Shown here piece after piece: positions 5,755 to 35,121 of a stretch of 39,306 nucleotides of DNA. Numbering within the stretch: the stretch's first letter is position 1; every line of letters starts with the position of its first letter. A program made the translations under genes and the position numbers. The DNA is taken from assembly GCA_937922655.1 (NCBI GenBank), contig CALAJH010000023.1, positions 1 to 39,306 of the forward strand, written 5' to 3'. Under the pieces are notes generated by a model, which was given only the letters and a program-made list of their open reading frames with translations, made no database searches and was not told the DNA's origin. Source of the DNA: an uncultured Bacteroidia bacterium. Its GTDB lineage: Bacteria; Bacteroidota; Bacteroidia; J057; CALAJH01.

Positions 5755-5792
5755 CGATAATTTTATAAATTGCATACATTAACGAAGTGGCA

Positions 5793-8450
5793 ATGAAGTT
5801 ATCGACATTGGTTTTTTTGGCGCTCGGCTGTACATGGCTTCGAGCGCAAAACGGAACGTTCGTTCCGGAAAACGCCGATCTTAGTCGTCCGAGGGTCCTG
5901 TTCAAACTCGAACGGTTGAGCGAATTGCAAGCCTCGTTCGATGCCCCGCATCGAAAAAACCTGCTTGAGTACCAAACGAACATGGCATTCAATTTTGCCA
6001 TCTTTGAAGACTCAAGTTATATTTCGCGCCAAAACAACGCACGCGTTGCTTTGGCCTCTTGTTTTCTTCTCGCGCTGGGTTATCGCACGGATTTGTTCTC
6101 CAACGAAATCATTCCCCTTTCGGAAGACGACCGTCAAATGCTTTTTGAAAAAACGCTGGCCCACTTGCACGGCATGCTTACCGACGTCGTGTTTTTGACC
6201 GTCGACAATCTGACCACGGGCAGTTACCATTGGCAGCACGACGCGACGATTCTCACCCAGTCGTTGGCTTGTTACGATCTGCTTGCGGCTTTGGGTTACG
6301 AGGAGGAGATTTTGGCGCCGGCAAGGGCCAAATTGACCGACTATTTGCAAAACATGTATCGTGCCGCCGCCGATACGGTCGTCGGCGTCGGGCCGATTAC
6401 CTTTTTCGATTATATAAAAAACAACCACGCGCTCAAAATCGCGGGCGCGCTGGGGCTGGGCGGCGTGGTCTTGGGCGAATACGGCGCCCCCGAACCCTTT
6501 CGACAACCCCGGCGATGGCTCGAAACCGCCCTTTTCATCATCGACAACTGCCTTTGGCGCGACCCCTACCGCCAATCCGAACCCGACCGCATCAACGGAT
6601 ACGCCGAGGGCCCATTTTATTTCAGCTACGCTTTCGTCAATTGCCTGCCGTTTTTTCGCGCCTTGAAAAACTATTGGCCGCACGACGACAGTTTGCACGC
6701 AGAGTTTCGCGGCGTCCAACGACGCGTTAGAAATCCCTATTTCGACCCCGTTTACGACCTTCTTTACGAATGGACTGTTCGCACGGCTTTGCCCGACGGA
6801 CGGTTGGCGCCCATCGACGACTCTTATTTGGAACGTTCAACGTTGTTTTTGACCGCTTTGGAAAAACCCCGTTACCACATTCCCGTGGATTTTTCGGGCT
6901 TCTTTCCCACCCAACCCATTACCTACGGACAAATCCTTTCCGCGCCTTTCGATTTTGGGGTTTTTTATTTGGCCACGAATATTCCGTTTTCGGATTTTTC
7001 CGACCGACCGAAAAACGACTTTTTTCCCCACGCGGGCAACGCCGTTTTTCGTTCCGATTTTTCGTCCAAAGCGACGTATTTGCACGTGGTTGCCGAAAAC
7101 GGACGGGCGCGCACCCAAGGCGCGGGCCACAATCAAGGCGACGTTGGCTCGTTTTTTCTTTGCAAGAACGCCGAAATACTCGCCCTCGACCCGGGATATG
7201 TAAGCTGGAATCAGCGCAACCTCGTCGGCAACGCCGACAACCACAACCTCGTTCTTTCCGGCGATTGCGGCCCGCTCATCGGCACCCCGCTCAATCCCAA
7301 CGACGCCGACGGTTTTCTCAACGACTTTATCGATCTGCCCGGTTTGGCGGCCGTCGAGGCCAAAACCCGCTACTGTTCGACCGACGTGCGGCGCGATTTC
7401 GTTTTTGCGGGCGAAAGGGCCGTTTTTGTTTACGACTTCGTGGACAGAGGTTCAACGGCGACGCATTTTCGTTGGCAGTTGCACGGCAACGGACGCGCCG
7501 GCGCCGATTTGCAAACCGTCGGCACGTTCGAACCTACGGAACACGGCGGCGTATGGCAACGCCCTTACGCCGGCCTTCGATTGCACATCCAATCCCCGGA
7601 AACGTGTACGCTTTCCACCCGACTCTCGCCTCATGAAATCGCCTTCAACCAAACCGAAGAACACACGACGCTCGAAGCCCGGGTAAACAATCAAAGTCGA
7701 GCAAGTTTTTTGGCCGCTTTGATTCCTTTCCACACGGGCATGGAAACGCCCGTCGTAACCGCGCCTTCCGTTCCGGGAGCGGCGGCGTGTGCTTACGACG
7801 ATTTCGTCGCCTTCGCTCAAACGGAAAAACAGCCTCGACAATTTTCCGCCACCGACCAAACCGTTGCCACCGACGCGCTTTTCGTCCTTTACAACGATTC
7901 GACGTTCGTCATGCGTGCGGGCGAAGGCGGTGGTTTTTTCGACGCAACATTCAAGGCCGAACGCGCCCAAGCGGGTAAGACGGCGTGGTCGATTTCCGAG
8001 AACGGCGTATGGCGCGGGTTTTCCACGCCCGGACAAACGACGGTTTTTACGGGCCGCGCCCCCGAGTATTTTAACGGCGCCGACGCATGGAGCTACAACC
8101 CCGAAACGGGGCGGCTGACGTTCTCTCTTGCGGCGGCGGGTTACTTTGAATTTCGCCTCAGCGACGCCGAGGACGTATTGAGCGCCGTTTGGCCCGGCGA
8201 CGCCAACGACGACGGCCTCTGCGACTCAATTGATTTTTACTTGACGGCGGCGGGCTACGGTAAATTGGGGCCTATACGCCTCGATTCGGGCGCCGAGTGG
8301 CGAGCGCACGCCGCAAGTTCGCGATGGAGCGATTTTATCGAATACCGGGACGGGCAACTGCCCGCCCGATTCTTGGACGCCAACGGAGACGGCGCCGTCA
8401 ATTTGTTCGATTTATCGGTTTGCGTGGCGAACCGGGGATTGAGTCGCTAA
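5793..8450 (+). CDS. Secreted heparinase II/III-like polysaccharide lyase with dockerin-like tail
   Basis: The 885-aa exported protein has a signal peptide at residues 1-19, ending L-R-A-Q. An alpha-helical region of about 300 residues follows, resembling the alpha/alpha toroid of polysaccharide lyases. The beta-sandwich that follows includes H-N-Q-G-D-V-G-S-F-F-L and N-A-D-N-H-N-L-V-L-S, which matches the Hepar_II_III domain. Such enzymes cleave uronic-acid-containing glycans by beta-elimination; the substrate here is unknown. The last ~90 residues start V-W-P-G-D-A-N-D-D-G and contain two calcium-loop-like D-x-N-x-D-G segments, like the dockerin-type tails seen on Saprospirales secreted proteins. 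There is no T9SS tail. I chose the ATG at 5793 over the GTG at 5787 because the signal peptide begins there. Confidence 0.82.
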   Translation: MKLSTLVFLALGCTWLRAQNGTFVPENADLSRPRVLFKLERLSELQASFDAPHRKNLLEYQTNMAFNFAIFEDSSYISRQNNARVALASCFLLALGYRTDLFSNEIIPLSEDDRQMLFEKTLAHLHGMLTDVVFLTVDNLTTGSYHWQHDATILTQSLACYDLLAALGYEEEILAPARAKLTDYLQNMYRAAADTVVGVGPITFFDYIKNNHALKIAGALGLGGVVLGEYGAPEPFRQPRRWLETALFIIDNCLWRDPYRQSEPDRINGYAEGPFYFSYAFVNCLPFFRALKNYWPHDDSLHAEFRGVQRRVRNPYFDPVYDLLYEWTVRTALPDGRLAPIDDSYLERSTLFLTALEKPRYHIPVDFSGFFPTQPITYGQILSAPFDFGVFYLATNIPFSDFSDRPKNDFFPHAGNAVFRSDFSSKATYLHVVAENGRARTQGAGHNQGDVGSFFLCKNAEILALDPGYVSWNQRNLVGNADNHNLVLSGDCGPLIGTPLNPNDADGFLNDFIDLPGLAAVEAKTRYCSTDVRRDFVFAGERAVFVYDFVDRGSTATHFRWQLHGNGRAGADLQTVGTFEPTEHGGVWQRPYAGLRLHIQSPETCTLSTRLSPHEIAFNQTEEHTTLEARVNNQSRASFLAALIPFHTGMETPVVTAPSVPGAAACAYDDFVAFAQTEKQPRQFSATDQTVATDALFVLYNDSTFVMRAGEGGGFFDATFKAERAQAGKTAWSISENGVWRGFSTPGQTTVFTGRAPEYFNGADAWSYNPETGRLTFSLAAAGYFEFRLSDAEDVLSAVWPGDANDDGLCDSIDFYLTAAGYGKLGPIRLDSGAEWRAHAASSRWSDFIEYRDGQLPARFLDANGDGAVNLFDLSVCVANRGLSR

Positions 8451-16013: not shown

Positions 16014-16032
16014 TACGCTTCGGGTTTGGAAA

Positions 16033-16065
16033 GCCGCCGACGGACGTCCCCGTCGGCGGCTTTTT
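16033..16065 (+). terminator. Strong intrinsic terminator after the subtilase gene
   Basis: An 11-bp stem (16033-16043 with 16050-16060, loop ACGTCC) is followed by TTTTT. Confidence 0.92.
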
Positions 16066-16105
16066 ATTGCCCAAAACCAAACGGCATAATACACCGACAG
16101 CATCC

Positions 16106-16168
16106 ATATTTTACCAAAACCCTACTTTGGTAAAATATAATTATTTATCTTTACCGAAAGTAAAATAT
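16106..16168 (+). promoter_or_regulatory. Operator-like inverted repeats in the fic promoter
   Basis: A perfect 13-bp inverted repeat (ATATTTTACCAAA, 7-nt spacer, complement) covers 16106-16138. A second, smaller one (TTTAC, 5 nt, GTAAA) covers 16150-16164, and the complement of ATATTTTAC recurs at 16160-16168. The right arm of the first repeat contains TTTG (16126-16129), 16 nt before a one-mismatch -7 box TATCTTTA (16146-16153). The sites therefore straddle the promoter, up to the ATG. This is the arrangement expected for repression. Confidence 0.75.
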
Positions 16169-17302
16169 ATGCACCGCATCGTGTTGGAAAAGTGGAAGTC
16201 GGGGACGTTCGACGAATCAAGGATTTTTCATCCCTCGGAAATCAACGGGGAATGGATATGGACCGAACCCGCACTGACCCAAGCCCTGACCGAAGCGGCC
16301 TCCGTCGTCGGCGAACTCAAAGCCGTCTCCCGACTCACACCGAATATCGACCGGTTTATCGGCCTGTACGCCGTCCGCGAAGCCGTGGAATCGGGTCGCA
16401 TCGAGGGTACGCGCACCAATGTCGAAGAGGCCCTGCAAAAAGAGGACGAAATCCCCGACGAAAAACGCGACGACTGGCGCGAAATCCAAAACTACATTCA
16501 AGCATTGCAAGAGTCTATCGCGGCGTTGAACGAGTTGCCGTTTTCCCTGCGCTTGATTCGCATGGCGCACCAAAAATTGTTGCAAGGCGTTCGCGGCGAA
16601 AACAAAATGCCCGGAGAATTTCGACGCACACAAAATTGGATAGGCGGGGCAACGTTGGCCGACGCGGTTTTCGTTCCCCCGCCCCATACCGAAGTCATGC
16701 GTCTCATGGGCGACCTCGAAAGCTTTTTGCAAAACGACCGAATTTCGACTTCGCCGCTTGTCCGCGCGGGCATTGCCCATTACCAATTTGAGACCATACA
16801 CCCGTTCTTGGACGGCAACGGGCGCATCGGACGACTTTTGGTCGTGTTGTATCTTCTCGACCAAAAATTGTTATTGCACCCGACGCTCTACCTTTCCGCC
16901 TTCTTTGAAAAACACAAGCCCGCCTATTACGACAAGCTCATGCGCGTTCGGGAACGGCACGACATGGCGGGTTGGCTGAAGTTTTTTTTGCATGGCGTTC
17001 GTGAAACGGCGGAGGCGGCTTGCAACCTGATTTCCGCCGTCGTCGAACTCAAAAAAACGTGCGAGGAAAAAATCAAAACCGGCGGAAAGCGTACGGCCAA
17101 CGGTCTCAAGTTGCTCGACGAACTTTTTGCGCGTCCGTCGGTCGGAGTGGCGGACGTGGCGGAAATGCTCAACGTTACGCATAAAACCGCCGGCGACCTC
17201 GTCGAAATCTTTGTCGATATCGGCATTTTACACGAAAAAACGGGCTTCAAACGCAACCGCGTCTTTCTTTTCCGTTCCTACGTGGATTTGTTCAACAATT
17301 GA
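16169..17302 (+). CDS. Fic-family protein with N-terminal inhibitory motif and C-terminal winged helix
   Basis: Fic proteins transfer AMP or another group from a nucleotide to target proteins. The 377-aa product has a Fic_N-like region with the inhibitory-helix motif S75-G-R-I-E79-G80, i.e. (S/T)xxxE(G/N). The catalytic motif H211-P-F-L-D-G-N-G-R-I-G-R is intact. The C-terminal ~70 residues look like a winged helix-turn-helix (V-A-D-V-A-E-M-L-N-V-T-H-K-T-A-G-D-L-V). The motif on the N-terminal side marks an auto-inhibited (class II) Fic enzyme. The DNA-binding-like tail and the inverted repeats at its promoter suggest autoregulation. No separate antitoxin gene is adjacent. The ATG at 16169 is chosen because the operator and promoter lie directly upstream. 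Confidence 0.93.
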   Translation: MHRIVLEKWKSGTFDESRIFHPSEINGEWIWTEPALTQALTEAASVVGELKAVSRLTPNIDRFIGLYAVREAVESGRIEGTRTNVEEALQKEDEIPDEKRDDWREIQNYIQALQESIAALNELPFSLRLIRMAHQKLLQGVRGENKMPGEFRRTQNWIGGATLADAVFVPPPHTEVMRLMGDLESFLQNDRISTSPLVRAGIAHYQFETIHPFLDGNGRIGRLLVVLYLLDQKLLLHPTLYLSAFFEKHKPAYYDKLMRVRERHDMAGWLKFFLHGVRETAEAACNLISAVVELKKTCEEKIKTGGKRTANGLKLLDELFARPSVGVADVAEMLNVTHKTAGDLVEIFVDIGILHEKTGFKRNRVFLFRSYVDLFNN

Positions 17303-33958: not shown

Positions 33959-34405
33959 TTAGTCGTCGGTCGTTGTAGGCGGCTTTTTGCGTGCGTCTTT
34001 TTCGGCGATTTTTTTGATTTTAAGGGCGGCGGCTTCCCATGTTTCGCTTGCCCACTCCAAACGGTCTTCGGCGCCGTCCCACGGCCCGACGGTGACGCAC
34101 AGGTCGCAAACGCTTTTTCGCGGCAGTAGCTCGTAATTTTCGACGAAATCGGTGGGCACGTCGGAATCGGGGCCGTCGAAGTACACGACGCGAAGTTCGG
34201 TTTCGTTGCGCAACACGACTTTTCCTTTGGCGAAAGGCGGGCCGCGGCGTTCGCGCCAAAGCACGAGGGCTCCGGGGCGCCACGTCGATTCGACGCGGCA
34301 CCCCGGAAAAAAAGCCTCGGCCCACGCTCCCGAGGTCAGCGTCTCCCACACTTTTTCGGGCGGGGCGCAAACTTCCAACCGCAATTCGATGAACGTGCCT
34401 TCCAT
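33959..34405 (-). CDS. SRPBCC (START/AHSA1-like) domain protein
   Basis: The 148-aa product begins M-E-G-T-F-I-E-L-R-L-E-V-C-A-P-P-E-K-V-W, the usual first strand and helix of the SRPBCC fold. A C-terminal helix (E-T-W-E-A-A-A-L-K-I-K-K-I) that would line a ligand cavity follows. Ligands in this superfamily are diverse and cannot be predicted. Its ATG overlaps the stop of the S24 repressor gene by one base (TAATG), so the two are translationally coupled. Confidence 0.8.
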   Translation of the reverse strand: MEGTFIELRLEVCAPPEKVWETLTSGAWAEAFFPGCRVESTWRPGALVLWRERRGPPFAKGKVVLRNETELRVVYFDGPDSDVPTDFVENYELLPRKSVCDLCVTVGPWDGAEDRLEWASETWEAAALKIKKIAEKDARKKPPTTTDD

Positions 34406-35121
34406 TAAGCGGTGCGCGGGGTTTTGACGGGCGGAGCGGGCAGGTCGAAGGTTACCCGCGCCTCCACGCGCCACACCTCTTTAATCTCGGGCAAGGTGTA
34501 TTCGTACGGCGGATAAAATTCGTTGTCGGACATGAGAATAATGGTATCGGGACGGGAACGGTCTTTGAGGGCCCGCTTGATAAGCACGTCGTTTTCGAGA
34601 ACGAAAACGTACAAAGCGCGGTCGCGCACCCAACGCGAATCTTCGAGCGCCGAGCAGACGACGACGTCGTTTTGGACGAGGGTGGGCTCCATCGAGTCGC
34701 CGTCGACTTCGAAGGCACGGTATTCGCCCTGTCTTAGACGGGGCAAAGGCAAATGAAACGCCGGCAGTTCGCTCAAATAATCGGCTTGCAGGCGTTCAAG
34801 GGCGTAGCCGGCCTGCGCCTTGACGGGAACCAACAAGATGTTGGGCCGGCCGTCGAGGCCGACGGTAACGACCTTCGGCGCCCCGGCGCCAAAGTCCGAT
34901 TTGTACATCGTTCCTTCGCCCATCATCAACCAATTGCAATTAAGATTGAACTCGCGGGCAATGGACGTCAAAAGTTCGGACGAGGGCTGATTTTTGCCCG
35001 AGATCATTTGCGATATCGCGCTCTGCGAAACGCCGATTTTTTGCGCGAGTTCGCTTTGCGTCATGCGGTGCTTGTGCAAGAGGATGCGCATGCGGTCGCC
35101 GATGCTCTGAATATGCTCCAT
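34405..35121 (-). CDS. XRE-type repressor with S24 LexA-like self-cleavage domain
   Basis: The 238-aa product has an N-terminal helix-turn-helix (residues 8-65, T-Q-S-E-L-A-Q-K-I-G-V-S-Q-S-A-I-S). The C-terminal S24 domain has a likely cleavage site A104-G105 and the catalytic pair S143 (G-D-S-M-E-P) and K182. Such proteins repress prophage, SOS or stress genes until cleavage. Here it is coupled to a SRPBCC gene and divergent from a small unknown gene with a palindrome in its leader. No phage genes are next to it. Confidence 0.93.
   Translation of the reverse strand: MEHIQSIGDRMRILLHKHRMTQSELAQKIGVSQSAISQMISGKNQPSSELLTSIAREFNLNCNWLMMGEGTMYKSDFGAGAPKVVTVGLDGRPNILLVPVKAQAGYALERLQADYLSELPAFHLPLPRLRQGEYRAFEVDGDSMEPTLVQNDVVVCSALEDSRWVRDRALYVFVLENDVLIKRALKDRSRPDTIILMSDNEFYPPYEYTLPEIKEVWRVEARVTFDLPAPPVKTPRTA

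Follow-up and report, generated by a model that had tools for sequence, protein, structure and literature searches.

An alternating operator lattice upstream of a predicted self-repressing SoFic-type Fic gene

Background

Fic proteins of the SoFic type are anti-phage toxins with a wide distribution, which raises the question of how cells tolerate them. One such gene lies in the window, by which we mean the whole stretch of 39,306 nucleotides from an uncultured Bacteroidia bacterium that was analysed. A sequence-only reading of this DNA had drawn attention to an inverted repeat in the promoter of the fic gene and had suggested a single Fic protein that represses itself. Our results suggest an answer that may hold generally, in which the tail of the toxin would read an operator lattice in the toxin's own promoter, and a legible code would link helix and operator.

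Results

The fic gene (16169-17302, forward strand) encodes a protein of 377 aa of the class II Fic or SoFic type, composed of Fic_N, a Fic domain and a C-terminal winged helix; no other Fic domain was found in the whole 3.58-Mb genome. The catalytic motif HPFLDGNGRIGR (residues 211-222; 16799-16834, forward strand) satisfies the class II pattern HPFx[D/E]GN[G/K]RxxR, and its core is invariant in the alignment. N-terminal to it lies S75-GRI-E79-G80 (16391-16408, forward strand), identified from the sequence, which fits the class II inhibitory pattern [S/T]xxxE[G/N]. Residues S75, E79 and G80 of this S75-xxx-E79-G80 motif are invariant in an alignment of 44 proteins, in agreement with the earlier claim that the protein carries its own inhibitory motif. 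The winged-helix-like C-terminal domain that had also been proposed is found in the AlphaFold2 model (mean pLDDT 92.4), where it is predicted at residues 306-367 with helices 306-321, 327-334 and 338-350 and a wing. The last of these is the predicted recognition helix (17180-17218, forward strand; assigned with DSSP on the model).

PADLOC labels the protein SoFic (375 bits, E 1.2e-112, residues 18-376), and structure comparison matches the model over its full length to Shewanella SoFic 3zcn (Z 40.8, 350 residues); other Fic-HTH proteins likewise align with the model. The score against the NCBIfam equivalog ProtAdlyltaseSoFic is 182.9 bits, below the cut-off of 550. The window protein is a SoFic homologue and not the same equivalog as that NCBIfam entry; judged by these matches, it is probably an anti-phage, protein-modifying toxic enzyme of the SoFic type.

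Upstream of fic an S8 peptidase gene is closed by a terminator-like hairpin (16030-16068, forward strand; 14-bp perfect stem, T-rich tail), which suggests that fic is a separate transcription unit. Downstream follows an ORF without a Pfam match. As the sequence-only reading had held, no convincing antitoxin ORF adjoins fic: the intergenic ORFs are only 22-31 aa long and start with GTG or TTG, and a search downstream for an ATG-started ORF resembling the antitoxin AS1 gave none. Among the relatives described below, an ORF of 30-80 aa is present just downstream of fic in 27 of 75, a count made without a control. Elsewhere the window holds a LexA/CI-like regulator of 238 aa (34405-35121, reverse strand; HTH_3 and Peptidase_S24) in an otherwise housekeeping stretch, possibly an SOS- or prophage-type repressor. 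An otherwise unassigned 887-aa ORF (5787-8450, forward strand) resembles the heparinase II/III C-terminal domain, weakly and below threshold. Secreted proteins of the same genome carry T9SS sorting domains, which makes an origin in Bacteroidota probable.

The perfect 13-bp inverted repeat is confirmed: ATATTTTACCAAA (16106-16118) and TTTGGTAAAATAT (16126-16138) are separated by a 7-bp spacer, and the 13-mer has no second copy in the 3.58-Mb genome. Only one other perfect inverted repeat of at least 13 bp with a spacer of at most 45 bp occurs in the 39.3-kb window, and it is the terminator-like hairpin that closes the S8 peptidase gene. Loosely matching TTTACC..GGTAAA places number nine in the genome, and the extension as TTTACCAAA..TTTGGTAAA is seen at fic only.

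The two arms contain half-sites that belong to a longer series. Half-site 1 (ATATTTTACCAA, 16106-16117, reverse) lies within the first arm and half-site 2 (TTGGTAAAATAT, 16127-16138, forward) within the second, 21 bp further on. Half-site 3 (TATCTTTACCGA, 16146-16157, reverse) follows 19 bp from half-site 2 and exactly 40 bp from half-site 1, and it overlaps a possible -7 element, TATCTTTA (16146-16153). A lattice score was defined for three alternating half-sites with a period of 39-41 bp, taken as significant at p <=0.05; the window reaches 27/33 (p about 0.01), and none of 100 shuffles equals it. The 13-bp inverted repeat is the best-preserved portion of a larger operator, made of three alternating half-sites with a 40-bp period between copies of the same orientation.

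The earlier statement that half-sites continue as far as the start codon holds in part. The reverse half-site 3 is in register, and a further forward half-site, AAAGTAAAATAT (16157-16168), does abut the ATG at 16169, but this direct-repeat match is displaced by 10 bp, or one helical turn, from the lattice. The window consequently has three half-sites in register, one full pair and a half, and a fourth off register. The latter agrees with the family consensus AAAGTAAAATA at 11 of 12 positions, closer than the in-register sites do. The sequence-only reading had the repeat overlap a probable -33 box; a sigma-70 scan upstream of fic gave no sigma-70-like promoter, and TTTG at 16126-16129 together with TATCTTTA is only suggestive of Bacteroidota promoter elements.

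For comparison we used two sets of relatives, about 110 in all. The first comprises 80 proteins from many phyla, 46-55% identical to the window protein, whose upstream regions were compared together with that of the window (81 regions); the second comprises 32 loci from the order and class to which the window belongs. Repeats of the same orientation exactly 40 bp apart are present in 56 of the 81 regions, where dinucleotide shuffles predict 7.4 (z 16.6), and the next commonest distances are 41 bp (29 regions) and 35 bp (21 regions). The lattice is significant in 65/81 regions, the window among them. At equal lattice score, other periods are found at 5-18 loci against 58 for the 39-41-bp period. 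The second set gives a similar picture (28/32), as do more distant plasmid-borne relatives of 41-44% identity from Phyllobacterium, Microvirga, Rhodoferax, Azospirillum, Sinorhizobium and Thermus (6/9). Control stretches score far less often: 2/67 far upstream (537-700 bp) and 12/78 just downstream. Where the half-site is the commonest one, AAAGTAAAATAA, the distance from a forward to a reverse copy and that from a reverse to a forward copy each have their peak at exactly 20 bp. Three to five half-sites are present at most loci, and the median gap between them and the first matched codon is 24 bases. By this comparison the alternating lattice, as a predicted operator, is a property of the Fic family.

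The searched sets hold no relative more than 55% identical to the window protein; the window's own family, represented by one genome, gave no close orthologue, and the best match within the order is 54% identical. One homologue (locus L100, 1501-2595) has an in-frame TAA stop and is apparently broken, and its upstream lattice still scores 31/33. On two Thermus plasmids (L121, L128) there is an overlap between the fic homologue and the start of a DUF1156 domain gene, and a helicase-related gene lies next to the homologue; the Thermus SoFic relative may be part of a larger defence-like cluster.

Relatives differ in half-site sequence, and these differences parallel those in the Fic recognition helix. 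Proteins with S-Y/F-K-A-A-N-D are accompanied by AAGTAAAATA, those with S-K-K-A-A/T by AAGTAAACTA, those with S-Y-N-A-A-N-S by GAGATA and those with S-K-Q-S-A-N by TTGACTAA. Helices reading S-T-A-L-R-L go mostly with GCAAATATAA or GCAATTATAA, and S-T-A/S-H-R-L with GCGAATATAA in two of three cases. The window helix, T-H-K-T-A-G-D, goes with GGTAAAATA, a half-site common to L007 and L099 (T-x-K). The window's GGTAAAA variant is confined to a few T337/K339 relatives (L007, L099 and partly L044), and L042 has T337 and K339 as in the window, yet its half-site is AGTAAAA. The idea that T337 alone determines GG was rejected, since GG is present in only part of the T337-K339 proteins. Four loci from Muricauda, Croceitalea, Balneolia and Algoriphagus (L053, L072, L075, L080) form a subgroup with the helix LSLPSAYKL, half-sites of the CTTAAATAAG type and a weaker lattice fit.

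This covariation was measured among related sequences, with kinship corrected through core identity only. Half-site similarity follows helix similarity with a partial r of 0.38 after correction for core identity, against a maximum of 0.12 in 500 permutations; its relation to core identity, corrected for the helix, is lower (0.15). Among pairs of 60-70% core identity, which are not independent of each other and for which p-values are therefore nominal, the median half-site similarity is 2.95 when helix residues are shared and 2.07 when they are not. A scan of all 329 alignable protein columns identified K339 and D343 as the two best predictors of the half-site after identity correction. Both stand where the recognition helix begins, and T337 and G342 are also in the top eleven. 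The core columns T239, T41, R55, W31 and A52 likewise exceed the permutation maximum, so some residual phylogenetic signal remains. That the half-sites track the recognition helix speaks strongly, on comparative grounds, for binding of each Fic to its own operator, which the winged helix of the protein very probably reads. The search for the repeat upstream of homologous fic genes, proposed along with the sequence-only reading, has thereby given a positive answer: the alternating operator is kept family-wide and covaries with the recognition helix.

Discussion

We consider it very likely, from comparative sequence evidence, that this locus encodes a single-gene, self-limiting toxin of the SoFic type that represses its own promoter through its winged helix on alternating half-sites. 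Fic, probably as a dimer, would bind half-sites 20 bp (two helical turns) apart through its C-terminal domain. Such half-sites would share one face of the DNA and lie about 68 angstroms apart in B-DNA, so that the strict 20-bp spacing would place a geometric constraint on the dimer. In CccR of Yersinia pseudotuberculosis, likewise a class II Fic protein, the DNA-binding helices of the dimer are reported to be 70.2 angstroms apart (PMC9755527); given this similarity two adjacent half-sites could accommodate a single dimer, beside which others could bind cooperatively. Bound to the lattice, Fic would block RNA polymerase and keep its own level low, which fits with half-sites near the first codon, where the polymerase must necessarily be positioned.

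The toxin would in this way be kept under two locks: autorepression for low synthesis, and the N-terminal inhibitory helix, which would keep the enzyme quiet, for low activity. Both are presumably opened during phage infection, a trigger suggested by the relationship to SoFic. Physical binding, repression and the dimer's use of half-site pairs are what we infer from these data, and the repressive sign is taken by analogy from CccR. With that qualification, the single-protein, self-repressing Fic first proposed for this locus is supported by the domain architecture and the covarying operator, though not as a 'switch' of bistable kind. The 40-bp lattice and the SoFic homology go beyond what that proposal had claimed.

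The repeats might instead be the site of another host regulator, of stress or of defence. Being AT-rich, the half-sites could serve a range of regulators, and many winged-helix repressors use sites of this type. An unrelated regulator would not, however, follow the Fic helix, as the half-sites do, and the geometry is common to several phyla while the exact element occurs in the window's genome at fic only; we give this reading very little credence. Just as improbable is that the inverted repeats form hairpins in the 5' leader RNA and so govern how well the fic mRNA is translated or how stable it is. The half-sites do extend up to the start codon and RNA folding of this stretch is favourable (-20.5 kcal/mol, z -3.1), though good folding is expected of any inverted repeat. 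A hairpin requires one dyad, whereas here conservation extends to both dyad orientations, at 20 bp, and to copies of like orientation, at 40 bp; these spacings are DNA helical turns, and a link to recognition-helix residues is not expected of RNA.

Readings that keep Fic as the DNA-binding protein are somewhat less remote. Fic could bind its operator to activate the gene, or could regulate a wider target set, as proposed for CccR, which changes how other genes are expressed (PMC9755527). Matches to a single half-site with at most two mismatches do exceed the control (108 against 57, forward), but the genome holds no second paired site resembling the fic operator, and half-sites just upstream of a start codon occupy the usual position for repression, which makes this unlikely. 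The operator DNA could also act as the antitoxin, with Fic dimers parked on the lattice and held in an inhibited or deAMPylating state. This long shot recalls CbFic2 of Coxiella burnetii, for which a switch between AMPylation and deAMPylation upon DNA binding has been proposed (PMC10628234). If it were true, loss or titration of the operator, for example by a phage degrading or outcompeting host DNA, would activate the enzyme and derepress the gene at once.

The preferred reading, autorepression through the lattice, has a precedent in CccR, which carries a C-terminal HTH and binds an inverted repeat to repress the gene that encodes it (PMC9755527), so the kind of system is already known. CccR and the window Fic are both class II proteins with an N-terminal inhibitory motif, a C-terminal DNA-binding domain and an inverted repeat at the promoter, binding being a prediction for the window. 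The operators differ: that of CccR is one AGATAATCAT-N26-ATGATAATCT pair with 10-bp arms, 36 bp from start to start. Such a 26-bp-spacer repeat was rejected for the Fic family studied here, which has half-sites every 20 bp and a 40-bp period instead. CccR is moreover a T6SS effector, whereas the window Fic is without sign of secretion. The literature searched, with preprints and most subscription journals outside it, contains no family-wide Fic operator, 20/40-bp lattice or recognition code; the lattice and the code, and how widely the lattice occurs in SoFic proteins, appear undescribed.

A close structural counterpart is Shewanella SoFic (3eqx, 3zcn), with a full-length fold match at about 27% identity; as of 2023, SoFic was said not to have been demonstrated to bind DNA (PMC10628234). 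Sofic of E. coli has a 47-aa downstream antitoxin, AS1 (PMC12249575), and no such ORF is seen at the window fic. CbFic2 (8cil) is a class II Fic that binds DNA through its C-terminal HTH (PMC10628234); only random DNA was tested, host histone is the proposed target and no operator is known, whereas the window fic has a predicted one. Finally, the type II toxin-antitoxin systems with Fic-fold toxins (Phd-Doc, VbhTA and FicTA) are autoregulated and have promoter repeats, as at the window fic. Their antitoxin is a separate protein, whereas the window Fic would unite inhibitor, toxin and presumed repressor in one chain.
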